NCBI GenBank assembly: GCA_020248905.1
Contig: JADCGR010000004.1
Coordinates: 1-64,000 of the forward strand
DNA length: 64,000 nt
Source of the DNA: Curvibacter sp.
GTDB lineage: Bacteria > Pseudomonadota > Gammaproteobacteria > Burkholderiales > Burkholderiaceae_C
Direction: 5' to 3'
Shown: in pieces, positions 980 through 52,931 of the stretch
Layout of the letters: each line of letters begins with the position of its first letter
Position numbering within the stretch: the first letter of the stretch is position 1
Notes under the pieces: generated by a model
Databases searched by the model: none
Seen by the model: only the letters and a program-made list of their open reading frames with translations
What the model was told of the DNA's origin: nothing
Program-made: the position numbers and the translations under genes

Positions 980-1849
980 TCAAACCCGCCGCAGCAAAGC
1001 CTGCCCTGCCCTCACCTCCGCCCCCGTCGTGAGCCCACCAACGATCTCCATGCCCCGGGGCGCCAGCACCACGATGGTGGACCCGTGCTCGAACCAGCCC
1101 ATCTCCTGCCCGCGCTGCAGCGGCGCATGGCAGGGGATGACCTGCTCGCCCCGATAGCCGTGGTGCAGGTTGATGCCCAGGAAGTGCAGGCGCACGCTGG
1201 CCACCAGGATGGCTCCCACCGGCACCAGCGTGAGCCGCTGGCCTGTGGGTAGCGTGGCCTCGATCACGGCGCGGTCATTGCGGCAGTACAGGCTGGGCAC
1301 GCGCTTGAGTGCAATGGGGTTCACATTCCACATATCGCCCTCGATATGGGTCACGCGATGCACGGTGCAGTCGGTGGGCGCATGAAAGCGGTGGTACATG
1401 CTGGCGCGCAGACGCAGGGTGACGTAAGTGCCGCCCTGGTGTTGCCTGGCCAGTTCTGCGCTGCCCAGCAGTTGCGCCAGGCTGTAAGGCATGCCCTTGA
1501 TCTGCAACAGTTCGTCGCCCTCGATGCGGCCGTGCGCGCCCACGATGCCGTCGCTGGGGCTGCAGACGACTTGCGGGTCCGCATCAAAAGGCCGGGCGCC
1601 GTCTTTCAGCTCGCGCACAAAGCAGTCGTGCAGGCTGTCAAAGCGCTGCTTCTTGGCCTCGCTCAGATCCAGCCCGCCAAAGAACTTGAAGAGTGCGATG
1701 GACGCGTCGCGCACCAGCGGCTGGCGCACCTTGCTCAAGCGCCCCATGAAGCGCGTGAGCGCCACGCGCGGCAGGCGGTTGGTGAGCACGAAGTTGAGGG
1801 CTTCCTGCTGGAGCAGGCGGTGGAACAGGCTTGGGCGTCTGGATACCAT
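980..1849 (-). CDS. psd: phosphatidylserine decarboxylase-like proenzyme, divergent (HGST type)
   Basis: A 289-residue member of the PLP-independent, pyruvoyl-dependent Psd family, membrane-associated, converting phosphatidylserine to phosphatidylethanolamine. The catalytic set is visible: Asp100 in SPSDG, His156 in MYHRFH, and the self-cleavage motif HGST at 255-258, where Ser257 becomes the pyruvoyl group. Most bacterial Psd proteins have LGST there, so this is probably a second, divergent Psd and may act on another serine-type lipid. It is transcribed away from the aminotransferase at 1979. A triple Pho box sits just upstream, with CATAAA as a -10 element 8 nt beyond it, so the mRNA would begin within a few bases of the ATG. 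Family assignment is firm; the exact substrate is inference. Confidence 0.85.
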   Translation of the reverse strand: MVSRRPSLFHRLLQQEALNFVLTNRLPRVALTRFMGRLSKVRQPLVRDASIALFKFFGGLDLSEAKKQRFDSLHDCFVRELKDGARPFDADPQVVCSPSDGIVGAHGRIEGDELLQIKGMPYSLAQLLGSAELARQHQGGTYVTLRLRASMYHRFHAPTDCTVHRVTHIEGDMWNVNPIALKRVPSLYCRNDRAVIEATLPTGQRLTLVPVGAILVASVRLHFLGINLHHGYRGEQVIPCHAPLQRGQEMGWFEHGSTIVVLAPRGMEIVGGLTTGAEVRAGQALLRRV

Positions 1850-1871
1850 GCATCGAATTTATGAGCGGCGT

Positions 1872-1900
1872 GTGACGCTGGCACGACACCGTGATGACGC
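1872..1900 (-). promoter_or_regulatory. Pho box, three 11-bp-phased repeats, for psd
   Basis: Read on the minus strand: GCGTCAT-CACG-GTGTCGT-GCCA-GCGTCAC, three heptamers with the 4-nt spacing of PhoB sites. Eight nucleotides further on is CATAAA (-10). The same box, 8 nt, -10 geometry recurs before ppk and at 15251. Confidence 0.6.
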
Positions 1901-1905
1901 AACAA

Positions 1906-1934
1906 ACGTCACGGCTTTTTCACACGGGTGTCAA
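1906..1934 (+). promoter_or_regulatory. Pho box, three 11-bp-phased repeats, for the aminotransferase
   Basis: ACGTCAC-GGCT-TTTTCAC-ACGG-GTGTCAA, followed 10 nt later by TACAAA as a possible -10 element (1945-1950). It lies back to back with the psd site, 5 bp apart. The possible GTG start at 1928 falls inside it, which argues for the ATG at 1979. Confidence 0.6.
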
Positions 1935-1978
1935 ACGCCAGGCCTACAAAGAGCACTGTCCTCTCTCTGAAAGACCTC

Positions 1979-3634
1979 ATGGTTGATGAACTCGCATGGA
2001 CGGCCGGCCTGCTGGGCGCAGCTGCGGTGGCATTGCCAAAAGCCAGGCAGCGGCTGGAGCTTTCGCGTGCCAAGCATCCCTCGCTGACCGGCCACTCGCG
2101 CATGGCCAAGCGGCTCGCGCGCTGGCTGCCGGGCTATGCCTACGATGAGGCGCACTTTTTCAACAGCGATGGCGCGCCCCAAGCCGTGGCGCAGCAGCGC
2201 CATGCCGGGTTCTTTGCGCTGGCGGGCCGCCTGCAGGCCGCAGCGCCGAAGTCCATCGCGCTCACCAAGGAGATGCGCGACGGCATTCCGGACCTGCGCT
2301 TCACGGGCGCCTACCGTGTGCCTTTCCAGTACAGCCCCTTGGTGCGCCAGCACCTGGCCACCGGGGCCTTCGTGCAGTCCGCCGGCGGGGTGAAGGTGAG
2401 CGATCTGGACGGCAATACCTACTACGACCTCACCGGCTCCTACGGGGTGAACGTGCTCGGCGTGGACTTCTACCGCCAGACCATGGCCGCAGGTGCTGCG
2501 CTGACGCAGGAGCTGGGCCTGGTGCTGGGCTCGCTGCACCCCTGCGTGGCCGACAACGTGAAACGCCTGCAGGCCATCAGTGGCCAGGATGATGTGAGCT
2601 TCCACATGAGCGGCACCGAGGCCGTGATGCAGGCCGTGCGTCTGGCGCGCTACCACACGCGCAGGAAGTATCTGGTGCGCTTCTCCGGCGCCTACCACGG
2701 CTGGTGGGAAGACGTGCAGCCCGGCCCCGGCAACCCCCTGCCCCCGCGCGAGACCTACACCCTGCGCGACATGCACGAGGCCAGCCTCAAGGTGTTGCGC
2801 ACCCGCCGTGACATTGCCTGCGTGCTCGTCAACCCGCTGCAGGCCCTGCACCCCAACCGGAACGCTCCGGGAGATTCGACCCTGCTCGACAGCAGCCGCA
2901 CCGCCCACTACGACCGCGCCGCCTACACGGCCTGGCTGCAGCAGTTGCGCGAGGTCTGCACCGAACGCGGCATCGTGCTGATCTTTGACGAGGTGTTCCT
3001 CGGATTCCGCTTGGCCAAAGGGGGCGCACAGGAGTACTTTGGCGTCCAGGCCGATCTGGTCACCTATGGCAAGACCCTGGGCGGGGGCTTTCCTGTGGGC
3101 GTGGTGTGTGGCAGGCGTGCGCTGATGCAGCGTTTTCGAGAAGACAAGCCGGCCGATCTGTGCTTTGCGCGGGGCACGTTCAAGGAACACCCTTATGTGA
3201 TGGGCGCAATGAACGCCTTCCTGCGCAGCCTGGAGCAGCCCGAAGTCGCACGCTTGTACGAGAACCTCGACGCCATCTGGGACGCGCGACGCGAGGCTTT
3301 CAACGCCCGTATGCACGCCGAAGGCCTGCCGGTGCAGGCGGCCAATATGCAGAGCGTCTGGACGCTCAACTACACCCAGCCCGCGCGCTACAACTGGATG
3401 TACCAGTACTACCTGCGCGACGCCGGGCTGGCCCTGAGCTGGGTGGGCACGGGCCGTTTCATCTTCAGCCTCAACTACACCGAGGCCGATTTCCAGGCCG
3501 TGCTGGAACGCTGCGTGCAGGCCGCGCGCCGCATGCAGCAGGACGGCTGGTGGTGGGGCTCGCCCGAGTTGAGCAACCGGGCCATCAAGCGCACCGTGCT
3601 GCGCGAGACCTTGCGCAAGCTGCTTGGCCGCTGA
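1979..3634 (+). CDS. class-III (GSA-aminomutase-like) PLP aminotransferase with N-terminal extension
   Basis: About 551 residues. Residues 1-105 are an extension not found in ordinary class-III enzymes: a hydrophobic stretch (WTAGLLGAAAVAL), then a basic segment and an acidic-aromatic motif (GYAYDEAHFF). The catalytic domain follows, with SGTEA (211-215, phosphate cup), AYHGW (from 238), FDEV (Asp337, ring nitrogen) and GKTLGGG with the PLP Lys at 365. Closest in pattern to glutamate-1-semialdehyde 2,1-aminomutase, but hemL is normally about 430 residues and stands alone. It shares a back-to-back Pho control region with psd, which suggests a lipid or head-group role under phosphate starvation. 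The true amino acceptor is unknown. A GTG at 1928 is rejected because it lies within the Pho box. Confidence 0.8.
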   Translation: MVDELAWTAGLLGAAAVALPKARQRLELSRAKHPSLTGHSRMAKRLARWLPGYAYDEAHFFNSDGAPQAVAQQRHAGFFALAGRLQAAAPKSIALTKEMRDGIPDLRFTGAYRVPFQYSPLVRQHLATGAFVQSAGGVKVSDLDGNTYYDLTGSYGVNVLGVDFYRQTMAAGAALTQELGLVLGSLHPCVADNVKRLQAISGQDDVSFHMSGTEAVMQAVRLARYHTRRKYLVRFSGAYHGWWEDVQPGPGNPLPPRETYTLRDMHEASLKVLRTRRDIACVLVNPLQALHPNRNAPGDSTLLDSSRTAHYDRAAYTAWLQQLREVCTERGIVLIFDEVFLGFRLAKGGAQEYFGVQADLVTYGKTLGGGFPVGVVCGRRALMQRFREDKPADLCFARGTFKEHPYVMGAMNAFLRSLEQPEVARLYENLDAIWDARREAFNARMHAEGLPVQAANMQSVWTLNYTQPARYNWMYQYYLRDAGLALSWVGTGRFIFSLNYTEADFQAVLERCVQAARRMQQDGWWWGSPELSNRAIKRTVLRETLRKLLGR

Positions 3635-3649
3635 GACCGCGTTGGCAAT

Positions 3650-3684
3650 GAAAAAGGGCCCCGGTTTTCCGGGGCCCTTTTCTT
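3650..3684. terminator. bidirectional rho-independent terminator
   Basis: Perfect inverted repeat AAAAGGGCCCCGG / CCGGGGCCCTTTT with a TTTT loop, A-run before and T-run after. It sits between the convergent ends of the aminotransferase and the membrane-protein gene and can serve both. Confidence 0.93.
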
Positions 3685-3689
3685 GAGGG

Positions 3690-4349
3690 TCAGCCTTGCT
3701 GGCGGGCGAGTTCGGCGGCCAGTTCGGCCTCGTGCCGGGCCCGCTCGGCCTGCAGTTGCTCGGGTGCGGCGATCAGCTCGCCCTTGAGCAGGTACAGAGG
3801 CGACTTCCAGTAGAGCAGGATGTCGTGGAAGGGATCGGTGATGATCTTGGTGGCCCAGACGATGCCCGTGCCCAGGCTTTGTGTCAGCGCGAGTTGCAAC
3901 ACACGGAAGACCAGCCCGCCCACACCCAGCCACAACCAGAGCCAGCCCACATTGAGCACATAGCCGCTGGGCTGATCGTGCGCCTCCAGCAGGCCAAAGA
4001 AGTCGGGCTGCAGCCACAGCACCACGGGCAGGCCGGCCCAGACGGCCATGAGCACCACCTTGCGCTGCAGGTTGTAGCCCACCTTGATTTCTTCCTTGTA
4101 CTCGTGCGTGGCCTGGTTCACCTCGTCGTAGCCCTTGGGCTCGAAGAAGAAGTGACCCGACTGGCGCGAGACCATGGAGATCAGCCAGGCGATGAGCGCG
4201 GCCACCGGCGGGTTGATGAAAAGGAAAACGTAGGCCACGAGGAAAGAGGTGGCGCTGAGCAGGTGCAGCGACTGGTTGATGCGGCTGTGGTGGTAGTAGC
4301 GGTGGTCGTCCCAGCGCTGGACCTTGAGGGCGTGCAGAAATGAACTCAC
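3690..4349 (-). CDS. polytopic membrane protein with His motifs (Mpo1/DUF962-like pattern)
   Basis: About 219 residues from a GTG at 4349, chosen because AAGGAG lies 5 nt before it; an ATG 18 codons upstream lacks such a site. Four hydrophobic segments can be seen (about residues 30-60, 80-100, 115-140, and a weaker one). Conserved-looking polar motifs are HHSRINQSLH (20-29), GHFFFE (65-70), a charged THEYKEEIKVGY stretch, and DPFHDILLYW near the C-terminus. The N-x3-H and GHxxxE pair resembles DUF962/Mpo1 proteins, iron-dependent fatty-acid alpha-dioxygenases of membranes; this resemblance is by eye and weak. A near-perfect Pho box lies upstream at 4418-4435. Role in membrane lipid metabolism is inferred from context only. 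Confidence 0.6.
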   Translation of the reverse strand: MSSFLHALKVQRWDDHRYYHHSRINQSLHLLSATSFLVAYVFLFINPPVAALIAWLISMVSRQSGHFFFEPKGYDEVNQATHEYKEEIKVGYNLQRKVVLMAVWAGLPVVLWLQPDFFGLLEAHDQPSGYVLNVGWLWLWLGVGGLVFRVLQLALTQSLGTGIVWATKIITDPFHDILLYWKSPLYLLKGELIAAPEQLQAERARHEAELAAELARQQG

Positions 4350-4417
4350 GAAGGCTCCTTGATGTGATACCGGTTCGAGGCGCAGGTCTGCGCCTGGGGG
4401 CATGCTCGGTGGTGCGC

Positions 4418-4435
4418 ATGAAAGCTCCGTGACAG
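4418..4435 (-). promoter_or_regulatory. Pho box for the membrane-protein gene
   Basis: Minus strand: CTGTCAC-GGAG-CTTTCAT, two heptamers with 4-nt spacing, close to the PhoB consensus. No good -10 hexamer was found at the expected distance. It lies 69 bp before the GTG start. Confidence 0.6.
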
Positions 4436-4443
4436 CGCCACAC

Positions 4444-4461
4444 CTGTCACCAAAATTTCAT
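4444..4461 (+). promoter_or_regulatory. possible Pho box for the glycosyltransferase
   Basis: CTGTCAC-CAAA-ATTTCAT: the first heptamer matches very well, the second at 5 of 7. It lies 66 bp before the ATG and only 8 bp from the opposite-facing site at 4418-4435, giving a second divergent Pho pair. A second weaker candidate, TTGTCAT-CGAA-CTGAGAC, lies at 4487-4504. Confidence 0.45.
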
Positions 4462-4526
4462 GACACAACACAACAGCGGCCCGGCCTTGTCATCGAACTG
4501 AGACAAACCCTGCGCAAGATGGGGGT

Positions 4527-5759
4527 ATGAAACCCGACACCACCGATCTGCTGGTCGAAGACCTGCCCGCCGCGCAGACCCATCTGCGCATTGCCGTCGT
4601 GACCGAGACCTACCCGCCCGAGGTCAATGGCGTGGCGCTGACGCTGCAGCGCGTGGTGCAGGGCCTGCGCGAGCTGGGCCATCACGTGCAGCTGGTGCGC
4701 CCGCGCCAGGCCGCCGACGCCGCCAGCCCTGCCAGCGGCCAGGACGTACTGATGCGCGGCATGGCTATTCCGCGCTACCCGCATCTGCAGCTGGGCCTGC
4801 CTTCGCGCCGGCAGCTGCAGCCCTTGTGGACCCTGCACCGGCCGGACCTGGTGCACATTGCCACTGAAGGCCCGCTGGGCTGGTCGGCGCTGCGCGTGGC
4901 GCGCAAGCTGCGCATCCCGGTCACCTCGGACTTCCGCACGAACTTCCATGCCTACAGCAGTCACTACGGCATGGGCTGGCTGAGCAAGCCCATCATGGCC
5001 TATCTGCGCCGCTTTCATAACCAGACGCTGACCACCATGGTGCCCACGCGTGGCCTGGCCGAACGCCTGACTGCGGCCGGCTTCGAGCGTCTGCAGGTGG
5101 TGGCACGCGGTGTGGATCTGGGCGTGTTCAACCCGGCGCTGCGCGACGAGGCCCTGCGCGTGAGCTGGGGTGCGAGCCCTGCTACGCCGGTCCTGATGTG
5201 CGTAGGCCGGCTGGCCAAGGAGAAGAACCTGCCCCTGCTGGTGCGCGCCTACGCCCAGGCGCGGCTGCAGCGCCCGGACCTCAAGCTCGTGCTGGTGGGC
5301 GACGGCCCGCAGCGCGCCGAGTTGCAGGCCCTGGCGCCTGACGCCATCTTCACCGGTCAGCTCGACCGGCAGGACCTGGCCCGCCATTACGCCAGTGCCG
5401 ACATCTTCGGTTTTCCCAGCCAGACCGAGACCTTTGGCAATGTAGTGCTGGAGGCCATGGCCAGCGGGCTTGCCGTCGTGGCCTATGACTACGCCGCCGC
5501 CTCGGAGAACATCGAACACGGCCAGACGGGCCTGCTGGTGCCCATGGACGACGAAACCACCTTTGTGCGCGAGCTGGTGGCGCTGGCACAAAGCGACACG
5601 CAGTGCGCAGCGCTACGCGCCAACGCACGCGGAGCAGCCCGCGCCTGCGACTGGAGCGGCATCGTGGTGCAGATCGAGACCGTGATGAAAATGGCTGTGG
5701 CAGCGCAGGGCGCGACCCCGCCCCAGGCCCTACCGCTTGCTGCGCAGCAGGTGGCCTGA
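4527..5759 (+). CDS. GT4-family glycosyltransferase, candidate diacylglycerol glycosyltransferase
   Basis: A 410-residue GT-B fold enzyme. The N-terminal domain opens with VVTETYPPEVNGVA, the acceptor-side glycine-rich loop shared with SqdX, Agt and MgtA-type glycolipid or mannosyl transferases. The C-terminal donor domain carries GRLAKEKNLPLL and the E-x7-E motif at Glu301/Glu309 (TETFGNVVLEA). In PlcP-Agt systems a related enzyme adds glucose or glucuronate to diacylglycerol to make phosphorus-free lipids. A PlcP-type gene, UDP-glucose dehydrogenase and Pho boxes nearby fit that job. Donor and acceptor are inferred, not shown. Its 3' end overlaps that of the convergent LplT-like gene by 30 bp. 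Confidence 0.8.
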   Translation: MKPDTTDLLVEDLPAAQTHLRIAVVTETYPPEVNGVALTLQRVVQGLRELGHHVQLVRPRQAADAASPASGQDVLMRGMAIPRYPHLQLGLPSRRQLQPLWTLHRPDLVHIATEGPLGWSALRVARKLRIPVTSDFRTNFHAYSSHYGMGWLSKPIMAYLRRFHNQTLTTMVPTRGLAERLTAAGFERLQVVARGVDLGVFNPALRDEALRVSWGASPATPVLMCVGRLAKEKNLPLLVRAYAQARLQRPDLKLVLVGDGPQRAELQALAPDAIFTGQLDRQDLARHYASADIFGFPSQTETFGNVVLEAMASGLAVVAYDYAAASENIEHGQTGLLVPMDDETTFVRELVALAQSDTQCAALRANARGAARACDWSGIVVQIETVMKMAVAAQGATPPQALPLAAQQVA

Positions 5760-7016
5760 GAGCAGGCGCCAGACCGCGCGAGGCCGACGCCGCAGCACGA
5801 TGCGGCCCACAAAAGCCGCCAGGCCCAGGCCGGCCAGCAGAAACACGGCCTGCACCGGCACGTCCAGGGCCAGCAGCGCGGTGTACAGGCCCAAGGCCAA
5901 CAGCACGCTGAAATTCTCATTGAAGCCCTGCACGGCGATGGACTGCCCCGCCGTCAGTAGCCGGTGGCCGCGATGCTGCAGCAGCGCGTTCATGGGCACC
6001 ACCAGCATGCCGCCCAGTGCCCCCACCAGCAGCAGCACGGGCGCGGCGCCGCGCCAGTCGTGGATGAACAGCACCGCCGGCATGAGCACGCCCATGAGCA
6101 CCCCAAGCGGCAGCACCGCCGTGGCCTGGCGCAGACGCAGCCGGCTGGCCACCAGCACCGCACCGGCGACCACCCCGAGCCCAACAATGCCCTGCAAATA
6201 GGCCGCCCGATCCAGGCCCAGGCCGAGGCTCTGCACGGCCCACAGAAGCACGGCAAACTGCAGCATGGCGCCCGCACCCCAGAACACCGTGGTCACAGCG
6301 AGCGACACACCGCCACTGCGGTCGCGCCAGAGCCGTGCATTGGCATGCCGGAAACCCGCCAGCAATTGCTGCGGATGAAAGGACCGCGCGGCATAACGCG
6401 CACCACTGGGTACGATGCGCAGATTGCACAGGGCCGAGAGGCTGTAGAGCACAGCGACCGCTGCGAAGGAGGCGTTGAGCACTGGCGTGGAAGCGGCGGC
6501 CGATAGCGGCCACAGCGCACCAGCCCAGGCGGCGGCAGCCGAGCCCAGCCACAGCGGCGCGACGAGCAGGCCGCCAAGCACCGTGCCCAGCAGCACCGAC
6601 AGCACCACCGTCGACTCGACCCAGCCATTGGCGGCCACCAGCGCTGCGGGAGGCACGCTTTCGGTGAGCAGCCCGTATTTGGCTGGTGCGTAGGCCGAGG
6701 CGCCCAGCCCCACCAGCGCAAAGGCCAGCAGGGGATGCACGCCCGCAAGCAGGGCCAGTGCACCCGCGAGCTTGAGGGCGTTCATCCAGGCCATCAGGCG
6801 GCGCTTGCACAACGCATCAGCGAGCGTGGCGATGAAGGGCGCCAGTAGCACATAAGAAAGCGTGAAGCTGAACTTGAGCAGCGGCGCCCACCACAGGGGC
6901 GCGCCCAGCACCTGCAGATGCGCGATGGTGACGATGAGCAGAGCGTTGTCCGCCAGCGCTGAAAGAAACTGCGCGGCCATGAGCCAGCCAAAGCCGGCCG
7001 GCAGGCGCCCGGACAT
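5730..7016 (-). CDS. lplT: LplT-like lysophospholipid transporter (MFS)
   Basis: About 428 residues, twelve hydrophobic segments. The N-terminal signature (FLSALADNALLIVTIAHLQ, then PFIATLADALCKRR and YAPAKYGLLTESVP) is typical of LplT, which flips lysophospholipids across the inner membrane for re-acylation by Aas in E. coli. No aas is in the window. The ATG at 7016 starts 6 nt after the ugd stop, so the two genes form an operon and only the start within this frame fits; longer upstream readings run through ugd. Placement with ugd and the glycosyltransferase suggests it helps move lipid intermediates during remodelling, which is inference. Confidence 0.8.
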   Translation of the reverse strand: MSGRLPAGFGWLMAAQFLSALADNALLIVTIAHLQVLGAPLWWAPLLKFSFTLSYVLLAPFIATLADALCKRRLMAWMNALKLAGALALLAGVHPLLAFALVGLGASAYAPAKYGLLTESVPPAALVAANGWVESTVVLSVLLGTVLGGLLVAPLWLGSAAAAWAGALWPLSAAASTPVLNASFAAVAVLYSLSALCNLRIVPSGARYAARSFHPQQLLAGFRHANARLWRDRSGGVSLAVTTVFWGAGAMLQFAVLLWAVQSLGLGLDRAAYLQGIVGLGVVAGAVLVASRLRLRQATAVLPLGVLMGVLMPAVLFIHDWRGAAPVLLLVGALGGMLVVPMNALLQHRGHRLLTAGQSIAVQGFNENFSVLLALGLYTALLALDVPVQAVFLLAGLGLAAFVGRIVLRRRPRAVWRLLSGHLLRSKR

Positions 7017-7021
7017 CGGCC

Positions 7022-8455: not shown

Positions 8456-8518
8456 GTGCACCTCCTGTATAGGTTAGGCGATGATGAAAGCCGCCCATGA
8501 CCGAACCGTGTCGGGAGA

Positions 8519-8536
8519 ATGAAGAAGGCGTGACAG
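8519..8536 (-). promoter_or_regulatory. possible Pho box for ugd-lplT
   Basis: Minus strand: CTGTCAC-GCCT-TCTTCAT. The first heptamer is near perfect and the second matches at 4 of 7. A further in-phase half-site CGGTCAT lies two turns downstream (8497-8503). No convincing -10 element is at the usual distance. Confidence 0.35.
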
Positions 8537-8599
8537 ACCCAAGCCCTGCTGGCGGTCTGGCAAGACTCAAGGCAAGGCATGCGTGTCGAGGGTACGGGC

Positions 8600-9820
8600 G
8601 TCCAGCCGTTAGAGGCCTGCAGCGCCTGCCCCTTGGCCAAGCGCTTGGCCCGTGCGGCGCTGGAGGCCACCTGTACGGCCTTGCGTTAGACTCTGCGGCC
8701 CAAGCGAACCGCGCCAATGGACACTGCGGTGCACGGATAGAAGCGCTTGACGCCATGCCAGTCCCCTGCCTTGAAGCCCCCGGCCCGGCGCTCGGACTCG
8801 TCGTAAAGATCAAGGGCCTGCGCTGCAATATCAGAAAGTCGTCCCCGCCCATATACCCCACGAAGTCACGCTGCGGGACGTTGTGCGCCTCGGCCAGGCG
8901 CGCCATCAGACGGATCATTTCGTCACCGCGCCAGTCCCTGTACCGGTCGTCGTACCGGTCGTCGTAGGGCTTGAAATGGTTCACGTCGATGTTGCAGGCG
9001 CTGGGCTCACAGCCGCCGTCGAGCAGGCGACGAACTTGCGGGCTGATGGGAATGTCGCCGGGCAGAGGGGTGAGCGGAGTGGCGTCGGGCGGGAATCGGC
9101 AGGCGACTTCGGGCCCGGGTCGGCCCAGGTCGTAGCCTTGGCTGTAATGGATATCGAGAGCCCGGATCACGCGCAGATCGGCTTCGCTCTCGATGCCCTC
9201 GGCCACCAGCATGGTGCCAAAGATATCGGCAATCTGCAGCAGTGCCCGCAGGGTATTGAGCTTGTTGGCGTTGTGATCGATGTCGCTGCTGTAGTACTTG
9301 TCGATCTTGATAATGTCGGGCCGTACCTGCGCCCACAGGCAAAGGCTGGAACGCCCGTCGCCAAAGTCGCCCAGCGCCAGCGAGCGACCGACCGAGTGCA
9401 GCACACGCGCCATCTCCACCGGGGCATCCACATCGAGTACACGCTCGTGCTCGATGATGTCCAGCACTACCATGCGCGTCAGCACAATCAGGCTGCGCAT
9501 GAGCTGCGAAAGCGTCAGGCCGCCGCCAGCTTCCACCGGGCGCGCCTGTGCCGTGGCGCTGACGTTGAGCAACAGGCGACCCGTTTGACGCAATTCACCC
9601 CAACGGCGCATGGCCGCGTGCAGGCAGAGTAGCCCGAGCTCGTAGACCAGACCCTCGTCGTGGGCTGCGCGCAACATGGCGTCCGGTGACTGCAACAGGC
9701 TGCCCACTGGTCCGCAGATCAGGGCCTCGTGCGCATGAACGATGACCGTGCGCACGTCGACGATGGGCTGGGATACGGGGACAGGGCACCGGCGCCCATG
9801 AGCGGCGCCAGCGGTCAGTC
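8600..9820 (-). pseudogene. EAL-GGDEF c-di-GMP protein, frameshifted remnant
   Basis: The main minus-strand frame holds an EAL domain: QPIVDV, EALICGP, LLLNVS, the xIxE segment LDIIEHERV, KIDKYYSSDI and VAEGIES. The usual DDFG motif reads GDFG. A GGDEF-type domain follows (NIDVNHFKPYDD, then YMGGDDF near 8834-8849). Just after GGDDFLIL the frame breaks. The expected continuation appears in another frame (LYDESERRAGGF, FYPCTAVSIGAVRL, stop at 8686), with about 15-20 family residues missing, and the tail (AARAKRLAK) is in yet another frame. No clean start codon is found at the N-terminus. At least two frameshifts plus a deletion make an intact product very unlikely. A perfect-looking Pho box still lies upstream. 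Confidence 0.75.
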
Positions 9821-9978
9821 CCGCCCCGTCAGGGCTTGGGTGAACGCGACAGCAAGGGGACGAGCGGAGTCGATCATCAGGGCTGGCGCCGGGGGAGCAT
9901 GACCGTAATAACAGAGCGGCCGCGGCCTCTGGGAGCGAGGCTGATGGTTTGCTTGTCTCATCGCTGTTCCGTGCGCAG

Positions 9979-9996
9979 ATGACATCTGAATGACAT
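9979..9996 (-). promoter_or_regulatory. Pho box upstream of the EAL-GGDEF remnant
   Basis: Minus strand: ATGTCAT-TCAG-ATGTCAT, two identical heptamers with 4-nt spacing, identical in heptamer sequence to the site at 15251-15268. It faces the decayed c-di-GMP gene. An imperfect palindrome, ATTTCG-T-ATCCGGAT-CGAAAT, follows at 10001-10021. Confidence 0.55.
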
Positions 9997-10108
9997 AAAT
10001 ATTTCGTATCCGGATCGAAATGAGGGCAGCCAAGGGGCCAAGGTAGCGCCAACATGAACGAAACGGTATAAATTGTTTCTTCAATCTCGTTGCAAGGAGA
10101 CGAAACAT

Positions 10109-10534
10109 ATGACAACCCCTAGCCTGCCGACGAACCCTACTGCCGCCCCCGCCCCCACCCGCCCCAAGGCCGCGCCGAAGAAGGCTGCGGGCAAGACGGC
10201 CGCCAAGGCGCCGAAGGCACCCAAGACCAGCATGCCTGCGCCCGGTAATTCGGCCCGCAAGGATGCCGCCCCCAAGAAGGCGAGCAAGCCTGCCAAAGTC
10301 AAGAAGCCCAAGCTAGTGCGCGACAGCTACACCATGCCCAAGGACGAGCACGCGGTGCTCGCCAAACTCAAGCTGCGCAGCGCCGAGCTGGGTCAGGCCG
10401 TGAAGAAGAGTGAACTGCTGCGCGCGGGCCTGAAGGCGCTTGCCGCGCAGAACGACAAGGCCCTGTTGGCAGCCCTCAAGGCGGTGCCCTCGCTCAAGAC
10501 AGGGCGCCCGAAGAAGGACCGGGAAAAGCCCTAA
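10109..10534 (+). CDS. Lys/Ala/Pro-rich basic protein with C-terminal helical (RHH-like) region
   Basis: About 141 residues, starting at the ATG at 10109 behind AAGGAG. Residues 1-70 are low-complexity Ala/Lys/Pro, like histone H1-like or AlgP-type tails. Residues 71-140 form a folded-looking segment, RDSYTMPKDEHAVLAKLKLR then KKSELLRAGLKALAAQND, reminiscent of a ribbon-helix-helix DNA-binding unit. A TATAAA lies at 10067-10072. It ends convergently with sixA, overlapping by 4 nt. Basic Lys-rich tails can bind DNA or polyphosphate, and ppk is two genes away; such a link is only a suggestion. Confidence 0.65.
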   Translation: MTTPSLPTNPTAAPAPTRPKAAPKKAAGKTAAKAPKAPKTSMPAPGNSARKDAAPKKASKPAKVKKPKLVRDSYTMPKDEHAVLAKLKLRSAELGQAVKKSELLRAGLKALAAQNDKALLAALKAVPSLKTGRPKKDREKP

Positions 10535-10992
10535 AGCACGTCGGGCGACTGCACCGACACCAGCATGGTCTGCGACACGCCATCGCGCAGGCGATGGCGT
10601 AGCCACCAGACGGCGCCTTTCCTCACGCTGCACTCGCCGCCGTGGATGGACAGCAAGCGCGCGATGGCCTGCCCCAGCACGGGCTGATGCCCGACGAGCA
10701 GGATCACGCCCTTGCCTTGGGGCCACTGCACGAGCTGCAGCAGCTGTTCGACCGTGCCATTGGGGCTGAGCTCTTCGCGCAGCTTGTACTTGCGGCTCAG
10801 CGCCTGCGCCGTCTGCTCGGTGCGACGCGCCGGGCTCACCAGAATGCGCGTTCCCTCGGGCAGCTGACGGTCCAGCCAACCCGCCATACGCGCGGCCTGC
10901 TTTTCGCCACGCGGCGTAAGGGTGCGTCCCAGATCGTCCTCACCGGGCTGGGCTTCATGCGCCTCGGCGTGGCGCCACAGGACGAGGTCCAT
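10531..10992 (-). CDS. sixA: SixA-type phosphohistidine phosphatase
   Basis: A 153-residue histidine phosphatase. It has the N-terminal catalytic RHAEA motif (His8), SPARRTEQTAQ with the phosphate-binding Arg, and VGHQP carrying the second catalytic His. SixA removes phosphate from phosphohistidine, for example from the HPt domain of ArcB or from PTS proteins. It directly follows ppk (1-nt gap) and is surely co-transcribed. In ppk neighbourhoods this family may act on other phospho-substrates, so the precise target is open. Confidence 0.85.
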   Translation of the reverse strand: MDLVLWRHAEAHEAQPGEDDLGRTLTPRGEKQAARMAGWLDRQLPEGTRILVSPARRTEQTAQALSRKYKLREELSPNGTVEQLLQLVQWPQGKGVILLVGHQPVLGQAIARLLSIHGGECSVRKGAVWWLRHRLRDGVSQTMLVSVQSPDVL

Positions 10993-10993
10993 C

Positions 10994-13105
10994 TCAGCGC
11001 CCCGCAGCGCGTGCGTAACGCACCATCAGGGCCTCCTGCGCACCCGGACCCGAACGGCCGTGCGCCGGACGGACACGCTCATAACGACCGCTGGCCTGCA
11101 GTTCCCAGGCGCCCTGCACATCGTGCAAGCCGGCCACTAGGCATTCGTCGACGATGCGCTGGCGCAGAACGGGATCAGTCACCGGCCAGGCCAGTTCAAT
11201 GCGTCGCAGCATGTTGCGGTTCATCCAGTCGGCGCTGGAAAGGTAGAGATCTTCCTGATCGCCATCGCGGAAATAGAAGACGCGGGCATGCTCCAGAAAG
11301 CGGCCGAGGATGGAGCGCACGCGGATGTTGCTGGTCTGCCCGGGCAGCTGGGCCGGCAGCATGCAGGCGCCGCGCACGATAAGATCGATCTTGACACCTT
11401 GCTGGCCCGCACGGATGAGCGCGCGGATGATGGACTCGTCGGTGAGCGCATTCATCTTGGCCACCAAGCGGGCCGGGCGTCCAGCGGCAGCGCCGGCACC
11501 CAGGGCTTCGATCTTCTCGATCAGGCGCCGGTGTAGCTGGAAGGGGGCGACCCACAGCGCGTGCAGGCGGGCCAGCTTGCTCTGCCCCGCAAGGTGCACA
11601 AAGACATGCTCCACGTCGGCGGTGAGCGCGGTGTCGGCCGTCAGGTGGCTGAGATCGGTGTAAAAGCGCGCTGTAGCCGGGTTGTAGTTGCCGGTGGAGA
11701 GGTGGGCATAGCGGCGCAGACCGCGCTCTTCACGGCGGGTGACGAGCATCATCTTGGCGTGGGTCTTGAGGCCAACCACGCCGTAGAGCACCTGCACGCC
11801 AATCGACTCTAGCTGCTCGGCCCAGTTGATGTTGACCTCTTCATCGAAGCGGGCCTTGAGCTCCAGCACCACGGTCACCTCCTTGCCGCGGCGCACGGCC
11901 TCGCGCAGCAGCTCCATGAGCACGGAATTGGCACCGGTGCGGTAGATGGTCTGCTTGATGGCCAGCACCTGCGGGTCGTTGACGGCCTCGCGCAGGAAAT
12001 CAAGCACGCCATCGAAGCTCTCGTAGGGTTGATGGATCAGTACGTCACCGCGCTTGAGCTGCTCGAACACCGACTGGCCCGGGGTGAGCTGGGCCGCATG
12101 CGCGGCGTGATACGGCGAAAATCGTAGCCGCGGCTCGTCGACCAGATCGACGAGCTGGTTCAGGCGCACCAGGTTGACGGGGCCATGTACGCGATACAGC
12201 GCGCCCTCGGGCAGGTCGAACTCTCGCAGCAGGAAGTCCGCAAGGTAATCGGAGCAGCCTGCCGAAACCTCCAGTCGCACCGCCTGACCATAGTGGCGGT
12301 GCTGCAGGCCTTGGCGCAGGGCGGTGCGCAGGTTGCGTACGTCCTCTTCGTCCACGGCCAGATCGGAGTGGCGGGTCACGCGGAACTGCGAGAACTGGGT
12401 CACCAGCCGGCCCGGAAAAAGCTCATCGAGATGCGCACGGACCACGCTGGAGATGGAGACAAAGAGTCGCCGCTTCCCGCAGAGCTTGGCCGGCATGGGA
12501 ATGAGCCGCGCAAGGGCGCGCGGAACCTTCACGATGGCGATATCATTGGTGCGCCCGAAAGCGTCGTGCCCGCCCAGACGAACGATGAAGTTCAGCGACT
12601 TGTTGGCCACCTGCGGAAAAGGGTGCGACGGGTCCAGTCCCACAGGAATCAGCAGCGGCTTGACCTCGGTCTCAAAGTACTGCTTGACCCAGCGGCGCTG
12701 GGCGGCATTGCGGTCGCCATGCGCGACGACGCGTATGCCCTGCTTCTCGAAGGCGGGCATGAGCTCGTCGTTGTACAGCGCGTACTGGCGCTCAACGAGC
12801 TCGTGGATGGACTGCGACAGGCGCTCGAAGGACGCCTGCGTGTAGAGCCCCTGCTGGTCCTGCACCTTGGCCGCCGCCAGATGCGGCTCGGCCCGCACCT
12901 CGAAAAACTCGTCGAGATTGGAAGAGACGATACAGAGGTAGCGCAGCCGCTCCAGCAGCGGCACTTCGGCGCGGCACGCCATATCGAAGACGCGCCAGTT
13001 GAAAGCGAGGATGCTGTGATCGCGGTCCAGCAGCGGGACAGCGGCAGCGGCGCTGAGGTTCTCGGCCGGCACGGAATTCTCCAGTCGGGCAAGTGTAGAC
13101 ATCAT
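10994..13105 (-). CDS. ppk1: polyphosphate kinase 1
   Basis: About 703 residues, usual for PPK1, which polymerises the gamma phosphate of ATP into polyphosphate. Visible landmarks: the N-terminal helical domain (SILAFNWRVFDMA, SSNLDEFFEVR), the head domain, and the phospholipase-D-like catalytic domains with LKTHAKM, His449 being the autophosphorylated residue, and STGNYNPATARFYTD. Start is ATG-ATG at 13105/13102. A Pho box lies 22 bp upstream, with TAAATA 8 nt beyond it, which would give a leaderless mRNA. Forms an operon with sixA. Confidence 0.95.
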   Translation of the reverse strand: MMSTLARLENSVPAENLSAAAAVPLLDRDHSILAFNWRVFDMACRAEVPLLERLRYLCIVSSNLDEFFEVRAEPHLAAAKVQDQQGLYTQASFERLSQSIHELVERQYALYNDELMPAFEKQGIRVVAHGDRNAAQRRWVKQYFETEVKPLLIPVGLDPSHPFPQVANKSLNFIVRLGGHDAFGRTNDIAIVKVPRALARLIPMPAKLCGKRRLFVSISSVVRAHLDELFPGRLVTQFSQFRVTRHSDLAVDEEDVRNLRTALRQGLQHRHYGQAVRLEVSAGCSDYLADFLLREFDLPEGALYRVHGPVNLVRLNQLVDLVDEPRLRFSPYHAAHAAQLTPGQSVFEQLKRGDVLIHQPYESFDGVLDFLREAVNDPQVLAIKQTIYRTGANSVLMELLREAVRRGKEVTVVLELKARFDEEVNINWAEQLESIGVQVLYGVVGLKTHAKMMLVTRREERGLRRYAHLSTGNYNPATARFYTDLSHLTADTALTADVEHVFVHLAGQSKLARLHALWVAPFQLHRRLIEKIEALGAGAAAGRPARLVAKMNALTDESIIRALIRAGQQGVKIDLIVRGACMLPAQLPGQTSNIRVRSILGRFLEHARVFYFRDGDQEDLYLSSADWMNRNMLRRIELAWPVTDPVLRQRIVDECLVAGLHDVQGAWELQASGRYERVRPAHGRSGPGAQEALMVRYARAAGR

Positions 13106-13126
13106 GACGAATTATTTACATTGTGA

Positions 13127-13144
13127 ATGACAATTGCATGACAG
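13127..13144 (-). promoter_or_regulatory. Pho box for ppk1-sixA
   Basis: Minus strand: CTGTCAT-GCAA-TTGTCAT, 13 of 14 heptamer bases matching the PhoB consensus, then 8 nt, then TAAATA as the -10 element. Control of ppk by PhoB is known in several proteobacteria. Confidence 0.75.
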
Positions 13145-13331
13145 ACACGACACACGAACCCTGCACATCCGACGGCATCCTTACCTGTTCGCAGAAAACA
13201 CGCGGGGTAAGTCCACGAGCGCGAAGGGCATGCGTCGGCAGACCCGCCTCAGCCTCTCATCCCACGTCGTGCTGACGTACCGACCCACATACGGGTCTGC
13301 GCCGCCCAGGCCTCCGTGACGAGCGTGATCT

Positions 13332-14201
13332 TCATGCGGCAGCCGGACTGACCGCCGACTCAGGCGTCTGTCGGGCCTGACCGTCAGTCCAGCGCACCAG
13401 CTCCAGCTGACCATCGTGATGCTCGACCAGGGCCGTGAGGCTCTCGACCCAATCGCCATCGTTGCAATAGAGCACCCCGTCGATGTCGCGTATCTCGGCA
13501 TGATGGATATGACCGCAGACGACGCCTTGGTGGCCGCGCTTGCGCGCCTCGTGAGCGACCGCCTGCTCGAAATCGTTGATGAAACTCACGGCCTTCTTGA
13601 CCTTAAGCTTGAGGTAGGCCGAGAGCGACCAGTAGGGCAGGCCGAGCTTGGCACGCAGATGGTTGAGATGGCGGTTCAGGCGCAGCGCCAGCTCGTACAG
13701 GTTATCGCCCACATAGGCGAGCCACTTGGCGTACTGGATCACCCCGTCGAAGTAGTCACCGTGGGTGACCCACAGGCGCTTGCCGTCTGCCGTGGTGTGG
13801 ACCGCCTCGTCCACCACTTCGATACCGCCGAACTGGTGGCCGATGAAGCCACGCGCGAACTCGTCGTGATTGCCCGGCACGAACACCACCCGGCAGCCCT
13901 TGCGCGCCGCCCGCAACATCTTTTGCACCACATCGTTGTGCGCCTGCGGCCAGAACCAGCGGCGGCGCAGCTGCCAGCCGTCGATGATGTCACCCACCAG
14001 ATAGAGCTGGTCGCAGGGACTGGCCTTGAGGAAGGCGAGCAGGTCCTCGGCCCGGCATCCCGGCGTGCCCAGATGCAGGTCGGAGATGAACACCGCGCGG
14101 TAACGCCTCGCTCCCTTCTCCTCGTCGGGATCGTACACCGGGCCGCTGCGCGCCGTGATCTGGCCCAACCAGTGGCTGGCGTGGTCCGGCGTGCGTTTCA
14201 T
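13332..14201 (-). CDS. plcP: PlcP-type metallophosphoesterase (phospholipase C of lipid remodelling)
   Basis: A 289-residue calcineurin-like phosphoesterase. All five metal motifs are present: DLH (Asp41, His43), GDIID (from 70), GNHDE (110-114), THGD (147-150) and GHIHH (230-234). The pattern LYLVGDIIDGW, WPQAHNDVVQK and VPGNHDE is that of Sinorhizobium PlcP, often annotated as an LpxH-like UDP-diacylglucosamine hydrolase. PlcP cuts the head group from phospholipids in phosphate-starved cells, leaving diacylglycerol for glycolipid synthesis. Its start shares one base with the olsB stop (TGATG), so the two are translationally coupled. LpxH itself is shorter, about 240 residues; that alternative is less likely here given the Pho context. 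Confidence 0.78.
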   Translation of the reverse strand: MKRTPDHASHWLGQITARSGPVYDPDEEKGARRYRAVFISDLHLGTPGCRAEDLLAFLKASPCDQLYLVGDIIDGWQLRRRWFWPQAHNDVVQKMLRAARKGCRVVFVPGNHDEFARGFIGHQFGGIEVVDEAVHTTADGKRLWVTHGDYFDGVIQYAKWLAYVGDNLYELALRLNRHLNHLRAKLGLPYWSLSAYLKLKVKKAVSFINDFEQAVAHEARKRGHQGVVCGHIHHAEIRDIDGVLYCNDGDWVESLTALVEHHDGQLELVRWTDGQARQTPESAVSPAAA

Positions 14202-15025
14202 CAGGCACCCAGGAAGTGCTTGCGATAGCGTGAGGGAAGATCGGCAATGCGCATGAGCATGGGCAGGTCGGCGCTGTTGAAGTCCGGATCCCAGGCGGGG
14301 GCGCCCAGCACCTTCGCGCCGAGGCGCAAATAGCCTTTGATGAGTGCAGGGGGCTCGACGTCCAGATGGCTGTCAAGCTCTTCGACCGGCAAGGGCAGAC
14401 GCGGCCAGACCTGGTGCTCGATGGGGGCGAGATGGGTTTCGCGGACCTGGCGCCAGATGCTCGCGGCCACGTCGCCGCTGACCACGCCGTTGTGCAGCAT
14501 GGGAATGCTGGCGCAGCCGATCATGGTGTCGAGCCGGTTGCGTACCATGAACTCGGCCAGCGCGCCCCACAAGGCCATGATGACGCCGCCGTGGCGGAAA
14601 TCCGGATGCACGCAGCTGCGTCCCAGTTCAACCATGCGTTCGCGCAGGACACGCAGACGCGTGAGGTCGAACTCGAGGTCGCTATAGGTGCTGCCGATGC
14701 GCTGGGCCTGCTCAGGGGTGAGCAAACGGTAGGTGCCGATCACCTGCTGGGTGAGGTGATCCCGCACCAGCAGGTGCTCGCAGTAGTCGTCGAACAGGTC
14801 CACGTCATGGCCAGGCACCGTGGTGGACAGGCGCGCGCCCATCTCGCTGGCAAAGATGTCGTACCTTAGTCGCTGCGCCGCACGGACCTCATCGAGATGG
14901 CGCGCCCACGAGACTTCAATGCCTCCGCGCTGCGCTGCAGCGTGGTCTTGATCCGGGCAGTGAAGTGACCCCCTGGGAAGCGCGACAGGCGACAGCGGGA
15001 ACGTGGGGCTGGGCAGTTCTTTCAT
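14201..15025 (-). CDS. olsB: OlsB-type ornithine N-acyltransferase
   Basis: A 274-residue GNAT-fold acyltransferase. Family landmarks are RYDIFASEMGA near residue 55, HDVDLFDDYCEHL, VIGTYRLL, and ELGRSCVHPDFRHGGVI, the acyl-ACP-binding core. OlsB joins a 3-hydroxyacyl chain from acyl-ACP to ornithine, the first step of phosphorus-free ornithine lipid. The second enzyme, OlsA, is not in this window. AAGGAG precedes the ATG. A terminator and a short ORF separate it from the Pho box at 15251, so expression may depend on readthrough or on a nearer promoter not recognised. Related hemolysin-like GNAT proteins are the alternative. Confidence 0.75.
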   Translation of the reverse strand: MKELPSPTFPLSPVALPRGSLHCPDQDHAAAQRGGIEVSWARHLDEVRAAQRLRYDIFASEMGARLSTTVPGHDVDLFDDYCEHLLVRDHLTQQVIGTYRLLTPEQAQRIGSTYSDLEFDLTRLRVLRERMVELGRSCVHPDFRHGGVIMALWGALAEFMVRNRLDTMIGCASIPMLHNGVVSGDVAASIWRQVRETHLAPIEHQVWPRLPLPVEELDSHLDVEPPALIKGYLRLGAKVLGAPAWDPDFNSADLPMLMRIADLPSRYRKHFLGA

Positions 15026-15064
15026 TTTTTCTCCTTGGCGGGTATCGGTAGATCTGCTTGGTTC

Positions 15065-15091
15065 GAAAAAAAGCCCCGGCTCAGCGGGGCT
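15065..15091 (-). terminator. rho-independent terminator ahead of olsB
   Basis: Minus strand: AGCCCCG-CTGAGC-CGGGGCT followed by seven T. It ends 40 bp before the olsB ATG and lies 10 bp after the stop of the small ORF at 15101-15205, so it either ends a short Pho-driven RNA or attenuates olsB-plcP. Confidence 0.85.
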
Positions 15092-15100
15092 CGCAGGGAT

Positions 15101-15205
15101 TCAGGTGACGACGATTCCTCCATCACGGTGCCGTTCGACCAGGGTGACCGGGTCAGCCCCAAGGGGACCGGGTTCATTGATGCTGTGGCTGCTGGCTGCG
15201 TTCAT
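15101..15205 (-). CDS. 34-codon ORF between a Pho box and a terminator
   Basis: From an ATG at 15205, with GGAG 12 nt upstream, the frame codes for 34 residues: MNAASSHSINEPGPLGADP, then VTLVERHRDGGIVVT. The codons favour G or C in the third position. The stop is 10 nt before a strong terminator, as expected of a true monocistronic gene. An ATG at 15235 would give 44 codons but probably lies upstream of the transcription start. No family is recognised and no hydrophobic segment is visible. It could also be the coding-like part of a regulatory leader or small RNA. Confidence 0.45.
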   Translation of the reverse strand: MNAASSHSINEPGPLGADPVTLVERHRDGGIVVT

Positions 15206-15250
15206 GCAAGCCAGTGTCTCCAGCGCTCGTGACATCCATATGGCCGAAAC

Positions 15251-15268
15251 ATGACATATGCATGACAT
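15251..15268 (-). promoter_or_regulatory. Pho box of the small ORF / olsB-plcP
   Basis: Minus strand: ATGTCAT-GCAT-ATGTCAT, then GTTTCGGC (8 nt), then CATATG as a -10 element. Spacing is the same as before psd and ppk. Confidence 0.65.
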
Positions 15269-15299
15269 CGAAGACCGGGCATGCAGGCCTTGCCATCAA

Positions 15300-15325: not shown

Positions 15326-15676
15326 ATGAAAAAAGCAACAACTAGCGAAACCAAGGTTCTGCGCTCGCTGGCGGCGCTGTCTCAGGCCCAGCGCCTGCGC
15401 GCCTTCCGCGCGCTGGTCGTGGCCGGCCCTGCCGGGCTGACGCCCGGCCTGCTGGCCGTACAACTCGACATCAGCCCCAGCGCCCTCTCCTTCCATCTCA
15501 AGGAACTGGTGCATGCCGGCCTGGCCGCCAGCGAACCCGATGGACGGCACCTGGTCTACCGCGCCAACTTCGCGCAGATGGATGCGCTGCTGGCCTACCT
15601 GACCCGGCACTGCTGCCAGGGTGCCAGTTGCGAGGTCACGCCCGCAAGCCGCAAAGCTTGCGCGCCCGCCGCATGA
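15326..15676 (+). CDS. arsR: ArsR-family repressor
   Basis: A 116-residue winged-helix regulator of the ArsR/SmtB family. The recognition helix region reads LDISPSALSFHLKELVHAGL, and the wing contains GRHLVYR. A Cys-Cys pair (HCCQGASC, near residue 95) towards the C-terminus is a likely arsenite-binding site, as in C-terminal-site ArsR proteins. First gene of a four-gene operon in which every junction overlaps by ATGA. An inverted-repeat operator covers its start. No Shine-Dalgarno is seen, so translation may be leaderless. Confidence 0.92.
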   Translation: MKKATTSETKVLRSLAALSQAQRLRAFRALVVAGPAGLTPGLLAVQLDISPSALSFHLKELVHAGLAASEPDGRHLVYRANFAQMDALLAYLTRHCCQGASCEVTPASRKACAPAA

Positions 15677-52824: not shown

Positions 52825-52835
52825 TGTCCTGAGAT

Positions 52836-52920
<85 letters not shown>

Positions 52921-52931
52921 AGTTTATGGCC

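Follow-up and report, generated by a model that had tools for sequence, protein, structure and literature searches.

By remodelling their lipids, bacteria can grow where phosphate is scarce; the products known from such remodelling are glycolipids, betaine lipids and amino-acid lipids. The cluster at positions 980..15270 of the window (the whole stretch of DNA analysed, 64 kb in length), from a relative of Hylemonella with a 3.2-Mb genome, raises the question whether its lipid genes form a single remodelling island controlled by PhoB, as the original prediction held, and whether such an island is peculiar to this strain. Pfam and NCBIfam models recovered every gene named in that prediction, for a PlcP-type phosphoesterase, a GT4 glycosyltransferase, a UDP-glucose dehydrogenase, OlsB (here termed OlsB-type), LplT, PPK1 and a Psd. 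The genes are organized in two joined units, olsB-plcP-(agt)-ppk1-sixA (unit 1) and psd-aminotransferase-mpo1-like-GT4-lplT-ugd (unit 2), and the predicted sites described below make this lipid-gene island very probably a member of the Pho regulon.

Within unit 1, all features are encoded on the minus strand. The ornithine N-acyltransferase (14201..15025, PF13444) is labeled OlsB-type only, because its scores with two NCBIfam models are below the respective cut-offs (155 bits against 350 and 152 bits against 320); PF01553, the PlsC-type acyltransferase family, has four matches in the genome, none assigned as olsA. The PlcP-type metallophosphoesterase (13332..14201, PF12850 and PF00149) is not LpxH, as it reaches 37 bits against an LpxH cut-off of 190 and a protein above that cut-off is encoded elsewhere in the genome (G000:C39). 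In most relatives an agt gene lies between plcP and ppk1, and locus L037 carries an intact agt of 355 aa at this position. In the window, the operon retains only the first 13 codons of agt next to plcP (13297..13335, translation MKITLVTEAWAAQ), followed by unrelated sequence. The unit continues with polyphosphate kinase 1 (10994..13105, TIGR03705, 862 bits) and a SixA-type histidine phosphatase (10531..10992, PF00300). Between the two units, a damaged GGDEF/EAL gene (8590..9901, minus strand) consists of pieces in different frames when compared with intact relatives, with approximately 150 residues missing, and its EAL part is still open (PF00563, 8e-31). The gene is intact, at 625–650 aa, in L037, L039, L040, L041 and L043, and both the EAL and the GGDEF domain are identified by Pfam in the L041 copy.

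Unit 2 contains a GT4 glycosyltransferase (4527..5759, plus strand, PF13692 and PF13439) that falls under the curated cut-offs of the nearest specific models. It is the sole match in its own genome at E ≤ 1e-20 to the agt of genome G013 (40% identity), and its substrate is likely to be diacylglycerol. It is not the usual plcP-linked Agt, which is the eroded gene between plcP and ppk1. The two remaining genes, both on the minus strand, encode the lysophospholipid transporter LplT (5730..7022, NF008397, 447 bits, cut-off 297) and an enzyme of the UDP-glucose 6-dehydrogenase type (ugd, 7022..8455, TIGR03026, 413 bits, cut-off 190).

The other genes of unit 2 form a trio. The first, Psd2 (980..1849, minus strand, 289 aa, PF02666, 5.9e-56), belongs to the decarboxylase family (TIGR00163, 168 bits, cut-off 112) and has the GST processing site, with the motif HGST where housekeeping copies have LGST. 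The Psd had been called a paralogue, correctly so, because a second psd is present elsewhere in the genome (G000:C56). The second gene encodes an aminotransferase of class III whose N terminus has a short hydrophobic stretch (1979..3634, plus strand, PF00202); its start is likely the ATG at 1979, the GTG at 1928 falling within a box. Residues D337, E338, K365 and T400 are invariant, and we take K365 and D337 to be the PLP lysine and the PLP aspartate of a class III enzyme. The third protein, Mpo1-like, has a GTG start (3690..4349, minus strand) and matches PF06127 weakly (5e-4; 20.6 bits, below the curated cut-off of 24). PF06127 is matched at E ≤ 0.01 by 19 of 21 members of the Mpo1-like family (best 4.7e-5), and H14, H18, H27, Q61, H64 and E68 are invariant. 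These alignments were made on chosen loci (20 for the aminotransferase, 21 for the Mpo1-like protein and 16 for Psd). A PDB search with the Mpo1-like family gave nothing useful, nor did the literature on Mpo1/DUF962 in bacteria help. By family profile, the aminotransferase is nearest to the aminotransferase domain of mycosubtilin synthase (5.2e-66), and that of MycA (6kfm) is its closest solved relative; the latter is a synthase domain, whereas the island protein stands alone, carries the hydrophobic stretch and is encoded beside lipid genes.

Among 101 loci, 25 of which were dropped for flanks shorter than 4 kb, the trio is complete in 75 of the 76 with at least 4 kb on each side, spanning at least two proteobacterial classes; one locus set was limited to the 80 best among 588 confirmed candidates, with a bias toward close relatives. 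Outside Hylemonella, 12 of 61 loci have plcP, agt, olsB or ppk1 at a distance of up to 10 kb and 49 have none of them there, a count that leaves aside Hylemonella-like loci and those with flanks below 7 kb, including L097, L108 and L116, which have such neighbors. At the genome level, 22 of the 24 relatives that carry the aminotransferase also have plcP, as against 20 of the 36 that lack it; the two exceptions among the carriers are genomes that are 83% and 70% complete.

What the trio makes can be proposed only tentatively. It may constitute a widely shared, PhoB-controlled pathway, not found in print, leading to an aminolipid that is phosphate-free or phosphate-sparing: the aminotransferase, together with the Mpo1-like protein, might attach an amine to a lipid-linked oxo group or to an acyl chain that has been oxidised, Psd2 might decarboxylate an amino-acid headgroup, and the resulting mimic of an ethanolamine lipid could replace phosphatidylethanolamine as PlcP destroys it. 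Somewhat less probable, to our judgment, is that no new lipid arises and Psd2 is a starvation isozyme sustaining phosphatidylethanolamine synthesis, with the aminotransferase and the Mpo1-like protein processing acyl chains or recycling headgroup amines released by PlcP. Such a role would agree with the retained GST processing site and with the PmtA-like N-methyltransferase (under the model cut-off) that adjoins the trio in several loci and fits ordinary PE/PC chemistry. However, it leaves unexplained why a mycosubtilin-like aminotransferase is nearly inseparable from Psd2. The housekeeping Psds moreover form a separate clade (support 1.0), which, with the other psd in the genome, argues against Psd2 being the housekeeping enzyme; Psd2 shares 31% identity with the G000:C56 copy and 62% with the module Psd of locus L189.

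To score PhoB-type sites we used matrices built from 10 E. coli sites, giving an 18-base pair score, a half-site pair score and a three-unit (triple) score. The original prediction placed Pho-box repeats before each unit, and most of these rank well. The best site of the window lies before ppk1 (13127..13144, minus strand, 21.4 pair/23.3 half-site pair). The olsB/arsR intergenic region contains a site 225 bases from olsB (15251..15268, minus strand, 17.8/19.2), weaker in the arsR direction (13.9); a 440-aa protein encoded nearby (15673-16995) had no useful match in Pfam, NCBIfam or the PDB. Strong sites also point toward the mpo1-like gene (4418..4435, minus strand, 17.4/21.4) and the GT4 gene (4444..4461, plus strand, 13.6/18.7). 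Two sites had gone unlisted: a further one toward GT4 (4487..4504, plus strand, 16.8/14.4), and an exact consensus before the damaged GGDEF/EAL gene (9979..9996, minus strand, 17.8/19.2). The latter and those before ppk1, olsB and mpo/GT4 are among the best of the window with the E. coli PhoB matrix. Before ugd, the pair at 8519-8536 is modest (10.6/14.1) and is part of a three-unit site that scores well (8508..8536, minus strand, triple 16.4). The three-unit site before the aminotransferase gene is degenerate here (1906..1934, plus strand, triple 11.3, marginal), and that claimed on the Psd2 side (1872-1900) is discarded, with a triple score of 4.6 that equals background.

The ten three-unit matches scoring at least 10 in the window occupy about six places, all within 1906-15268. 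At a threshold of 12 there are nine, against 0.85 expected from 20 shuffles. With the 18-base matrix, 13 matches reach a score of at least 12, three of which (35238, 51878 and 52818) fall beyond the island.

Genome-wide, the plain consensus TGTCATN5TGTCA occurs exactly six times, three times in the island and once at pstS. A second pattern gave eight sites (five in the island, one at pstS) and its reversed control one, counts that are only illustrative because the sites of the window were already known when the pattern was drawn up. Likewise, the own-genome comparison stretches are not a fair background, because they were mostly picked for holding pattern matches. The genome encodes PhoB/PhoR and Pst; pst, phoU and phoR were assigned from reading frames and gene order, with a model search for the regulator domain alone. 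The boxes could instead serve another OmpR-family regulator, the winged-helix response-regulator domain having six matches in the genome. We regard this as improbable, since the same motif precedes pstS, whose contig also carries the pst genes and phoB, and the matrix derives from E. coli PhoB-regulated promoters.

Boxes recur before orthologous genes. Scores of at least 13 were found before 67 of 87 aminotransferase orthologues (12 of 261 shuffles) and 68 of 82 mpo orthologues (10 of 246), and the triple model found boxes before 49 of 79 orthologues (7 of 395). A further, more distant set reached at least 14 in 10 of 21 cases against 2 of 105 shuffles, while operon-internal controls had no boxes (SixA 0/21, PlcP 0/25). 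Relatives have stronger sites where 1906-1934 lies (for example 16.0 in H. gracilis); aminotransferase boxes score below 12 in L193, L197 and L199-L203. Pair scores of at least 14 occur for the ppk1 site in 12 of 18 relatives and for the site toward olsB in 10 of 13, and the ugd box is weak in most (1 of 7 and 8 of 29). That the boxes are chance matches before constitutive genes is very improbable: strong matches do occur off the island, one of them preceding a tRNA (52818), others within or close to unrelated genes on contigs C10 and C56, and one before or inside an unrelated frame on C65 (triple 17.7), but three of the six exact genome-wide sites fall in 0.44% of the genome and the conservation before orthologues far exceeds that in shuffles.

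From sequence we infer PhoB binding and induction. The box statistics, the pstS box and the boxes before orthologous genes lend good support to a lipid-remodelling island under Pho control; the parts of the original prediction to be amended are the Agt, the single island in place of two joined units, and the site at 1872-1900. We consider it probable that in low phosphate PhoB~P switches on both units, combining PlcP, OlsB and PPK1 with a GT4 glycolipid and a nitrogen-containing lipid from the trio. PhoB~P would bind the 7-4-7 boxes and activate the two neighboring units. In unit 1, PlcP would cleave phospholipids to diacylglycerol and a phospho-headgroup, OlsB would begin ornithine-lipid synthesis and PPK1 would handle polyphosphate. 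In unit 2, with the agt of plcP lost, GT4 would glycosylate the diacylglycerol from PlcP, most likely with UDP-glucuronate from Ugd (yielding glucuronosyl-diacylglycerol), perhaps with UDP-glucose. The most likely role of the trio is to synthesize or modify a membrane lipid that contains nitrogen and serves under phosphate shortage. The genes, the sites, the agt loss and the conservation are observed; the activities, for all island enzymes, and the trio product are what we infer.

Is the island peculiar to this strain? The two units are separable; they are joined in 9 of the 14 same-genus loci examined, and in certain further lineages the two are found close together, so the island is not unique to the strain. 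Hylemonella gracilis Niagara R is one carrier of the joined arrangement (L057/L048). The suggestion of a single undescribed island is further narrowed by the literature, which already documents Pho dependence of PlcP, OlsAB and TuaD as well as Pho boxes upstream of agt and olsB genes (PMC5082522; PMC7814305; PMC8528852; PMC4796936). In Pseudomonas aeruginosa, Pho boxes accompany PlcP and two glycosyltransferases, Agt1 and Agt2 (PA3219, PA3218, PA0842); Agt2 is encoded apart from plcP and uses UDP-glucuronate, resembling the GT4-plus-ugd pair, whereas the island lost its plcP-linked agt and its remaining GT4 lies in a psd/aminotransferase/mpo1-like unit that the available portions of that paper do not mention (PMC8528852). 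In marine heterotrophs, plcP is accompanied by agt or btaAB, likewise with Pho boxes; unlike in the island, the accessible text on these neighborhoods names neither an aminotransferase nor a Psd, an Mpo1-like gene or ppk1 (PMC4796936). PlcP, OlsAB and the UDP-glucose dehydrogenase TuaD are Pho-dependent in Pseudomonas putida BIRD-1 by proteomics, whereas for the island this dependence is a prediction; the word aminotransferase is absent from the main text of that partly available paper (PMC5082522). In Burkholderia sensu lato, Pho boxes are predicted before olsB homologues, as in the island, and, unlike for our host, the sections at hand mention no plcP/ppk1/psd island (PMC7814305).

What stands of the claimed novelty is the trio, of which no description was found in the open-access literature. 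It stays nearly intact across two or more classes of proteobacteria, frequently has PhoB-type boxes and in some loci adjoins plcP or agt, pointing to a remodelling output not found named in the literature. A PDB search with the PHP-type phosphoesterase-like domain that is fused to GT4 in the trio operon of three loci gave nothing useful. The trio is small, and its carriers include Hylemonella gracilis Niagara R, Limnohabitans, Roseateles koreensis and Sphingomonas parapaucimobilis.

The island is genuine and is predicted to serve Pho-regulated lipid remodelling, as the original prediction proposed; however, it joins two older units, has lost the known partner gene agt, and its remodelling theme was already known. 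The genome (3.22 Mb, 65 contigs, 99.87% complete) has Hylemonella as its nearest named relatives found, with an aminotransferase in H. gracilis Niagara R that is 84% identical, and the remaining close relatives are filed under Comamonadaceae, Curvibacter or Burkholderiales. Pfam and NCBIfam bore out the predicted gene list. The gene at 3690-4349, previously left unnamed, is weakly Mpo1-like (mpo): its protein falls under the Pfam cut-off, yet 19 of 21 family members match the model at E ≤ 0.01 (best 4.7e-5), and His, Gln and Glu residues are invariant. ATG 1979 is the probable start of the aminotransferase gene, because GTG 1928 falls within the gene's own box. The island Psd (psd2, motif HGST) shares 31% identity with the second Psd of the genome (contig C56, motif LGST) and 62% with the module Psd of another locus (L189). 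LpxH was considered for the island metallophosphoesterase and rejected; a separate LpxH is present at contig C39.

The order olsB-plcP-agt-ppk1-sixA recurs across relatives. It is joined to psd2-aminotransferase-mpo-GT4-lplT(-ugd), whole or as far as fetched, in 9 of 14 same-genus loci (L037-L043, L048, L050), and stands without this second unit in the other five (L044-L047, L049), whose genomes yielded no aminotransferase match. No second unit was found inside the fetched 20 kb of five loci from the same family (L051-L055), and in a locus from another family of the order (L056) the genes for plcP, psd2, the aminotransferase, mpo, GT4 and olsB are arranged differently. Between plcP and ppk1, agt is present in 13 of 20 fetched relatives (355 aa in L037). 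At 13106-13335 of the window only its first 13 codons remain, followed by unrelated sequence, and at E ≤ 1e-20 agt matches nothing in the genome but the GT4 gene at 4584-5501 (40% identity); in four other genomes (G017, G021, G008, G003) the match is likewise limited to their GT4. The plcP-linked Agt1 of Pseudomonas aeruginosa uses UDP-glucose and the unlinked Agt2 UDP-glucuronate, with Pho boxes at both (PMC8528852). The GT4 beside ugd resembles this Agt2, a UDP-glucuronate user encoded apart from plcP, and by analogy would make glucuronosyl-diacylglycerol.

A PhoB matrix was derived from ten sites in E. coli promoters (regions of phoA, phoB, pstS, ugpB, phnC, phoE and phoH were fetched, phnC contributing none), with the spacer zeroed, and both strands were scanned. 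The best 18-base pair score of the 64 kb lies upstream of ppk1 (13127-13144, 21.4), followed by 15251 and 9979 (17.8 each), 52818 (17.6), 4418 (17.4) and 4487 (16.8). Thirteen pairs score at least 12, compared to 3.7 in shuffles, and 3 of the 13 are outside the island. A three-unit model gives 10 matches scoring at least 10, which fall at about six places, all within 1906-15268 and none elsewhere in the window; nine triples score at least 12, versus 0.85 expected. Among individual proposed sites, 8519-8536 has a modest pair score but does well under the three-unit model; the site at 1906-1934 is weak in the window, although the same position is stronger in relatives (16.0 in H. gracilis); and 1872-1900 is unsupported (triple score 4.6). 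Exact TGTCATN5TGTCA occurs six times in the genome: at 9980, 13128 and 15252 of the window, immediately upstream of pstS, and twice at or close to genes that have no clear phosphate role. Allowing up to two mismatches gives 270 matches, versus 139 for a reversed control. Six further stretches of the genome (87 kb), picked mostly because they contain pattern matches, hold three triples of at least 10 around pstS and one each on C10 and C65, the latter scoring 17.7. Outside the island and pstS, the strong matrix matches lie in or adjoining genes without a clear phosphate role (G000:C10:98988, G000:C56:83912 and G000:C65:16625, G000 being the same genome). The stretch 52818-53147 contains a pair of tRNA-Leu(CAG) genes some 140 bases apart, and the strong match immediately upstream of the first is probably due to chance.

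Conservation was assessed in 20 stretches around plcP from 20 relatives and the best 80 of 588 candidate aminotransferase loci, as a score of at least 13 within 250 bases upstream of each gene. Such sites precede the aminotransferase in 67/87 cases (shuffles 12/261), mpo in 68/82 (10/246), GT4 in 66/79 (10/237), ppk1 in 15/22 (2/66), the small gene at 10109 in 4/5 (1/15) and arsR, in the olsB intergenic stretch, in 13/15 (1/45); kinship among the sequences inflates all these counts, and the counts for mpo and GT4 depend on each other, since both come from a single shared intergenic stretch. Control genes gave no such site in these 250 bases (SixA 0/21, PlcP 0/25, ArsC 0/14, GlmM 0/4, FolP 0/3, AQP 0/3). 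Conservation is weak upstream of ugd (8/36), LplT (4/54) and psd2 (9/86); for olsB itself it is 4/22, and in the window the olsB box lies 225 bases out. Direction-aware scoring toward the aminotransferase (at least 14) points the same way: three sets gave 8/8, 38/79 and 10/21, with shuffles at 0/40, 5/395 and 2/105. In the third set, CTGTCATGAATCTGTCAG or a close variant of it begins some 50 bases upstream of the aminotransferase in the large genomes of genus g151, and seven loci (L193, L197, L199-L203) score below 12.

It is already known that PlcP, OlsAB and TuaD depend on Pho and that Pho boxes lie upstream of agt and olsB (PMC5082522, PMC8528852, PMC7814305, PMC4796936). The remodelling part is a variation on an already known kind, and the trio of psd2, class III aminotransferase and mpo is the part to follow up. 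Open-access papers yielded nothing apparently relevant on psd or the aminotransferase with phosphate starvation, the Pho regulon or PlcP, which does not prove absence; the main texts of PMC4796936, PMC9239053 and PMC5082522 never use the word "aminotransferase".

Both psd2 and mpo lie near the aminotransferase in 75 of the 76 loci whose flanks both reach 4 kb or more (from 101 considered), the exception (L205) lacking psd2. Sampling 397 genomes of the phylum turned up the aminotransferase family in 28, of which 20 belong to classes other than that of the present genome; a Sphingomonas parapaucimobilis plasmid carries a divergent psd/aminotransferase pair with an adjoining Mpo-like gene. In 12 of 61 non-Hylemonella loci (7 kb on both sides), plcP, olsB, agt or ppk1 lies within 10 kb, where chance alone, by our rough estimate, would account for about half a percent for each gene and genome; seven of the 12 have agt only, six of these from one genus. 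The locus without psd2 holds plcP, a methyltransferase, a DUF3419 gene (presumably BtaA-type), the aminotransferase, an Mpo1-like gene and agt in one stretch (L205:6459-13460), and in several loci a PmtA-like methyltransferase, below the model cut-off, adjoins mpo. In three loci the trio is codirectional with a protein of about 900 aa, encoded between the aminotransferase and psd2-mpo (L198:3674-6355, L202:7374-10109, L203:6607-9483), whose C-terminal part is a GT4. Its N-terminal part carries DLHCHD and GGSDDH motifs, which we take as the mark of PHP-type enzymes, and looks like a PHP-type metallophosphoesterase; Pfam and PDB gave no useful match to this domain, and a CehA/McbA metallohydrolase model matched all three proteins weakly (E 3e-5, 0.005 and 0.09, far under the cut-off). 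If this reading is true, "phosphoesterase plus glycosyltransferase" would have been invented a second time. An aminotransferase profile matched the mycosubtilin synthase aminotransferase domain best (5e-66; glutamate-1-semialdehyde aminomutases 1e-44 at best). Because that domain acts on beta-ketoacyl chains, the resemblance hints at a possible acyl- or lipid-linked substrate.

Among other neighbours, a GGDEF/EAL gene at 8590-9996 is damaged, with pieces in different frames and about 150 residues gone, the EAL part still being open; it is intact in five relatives. It retains an exact PhoB-type box upstream, which scores 17-19 in L040, L041 and L043, 9.6 in L037 and 11.3 in L039. This is a hint that phosphate may be linked to c-di-GMP. 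The small lysine/alanine-rich protein at 10109-10534 has no Pfam match; its C-terminal part is conserved, and in relatives its gene usually adjoins sixA or ppk1. At 15326-18136 lies an ars-type unit with genes for an ArsR-like regulator, an ArsC of the low-molecular-weight phosphatase type, an aquaporin and a 440-aa protein. The 440-aa protein has no match in Pfam, NCBIfam or PDB, and its EINTNAGG stretch recalls ATP-grasp enzymes; among the 20 fetched relatives it was matched in 4, and ArsR with ArsC in 13.
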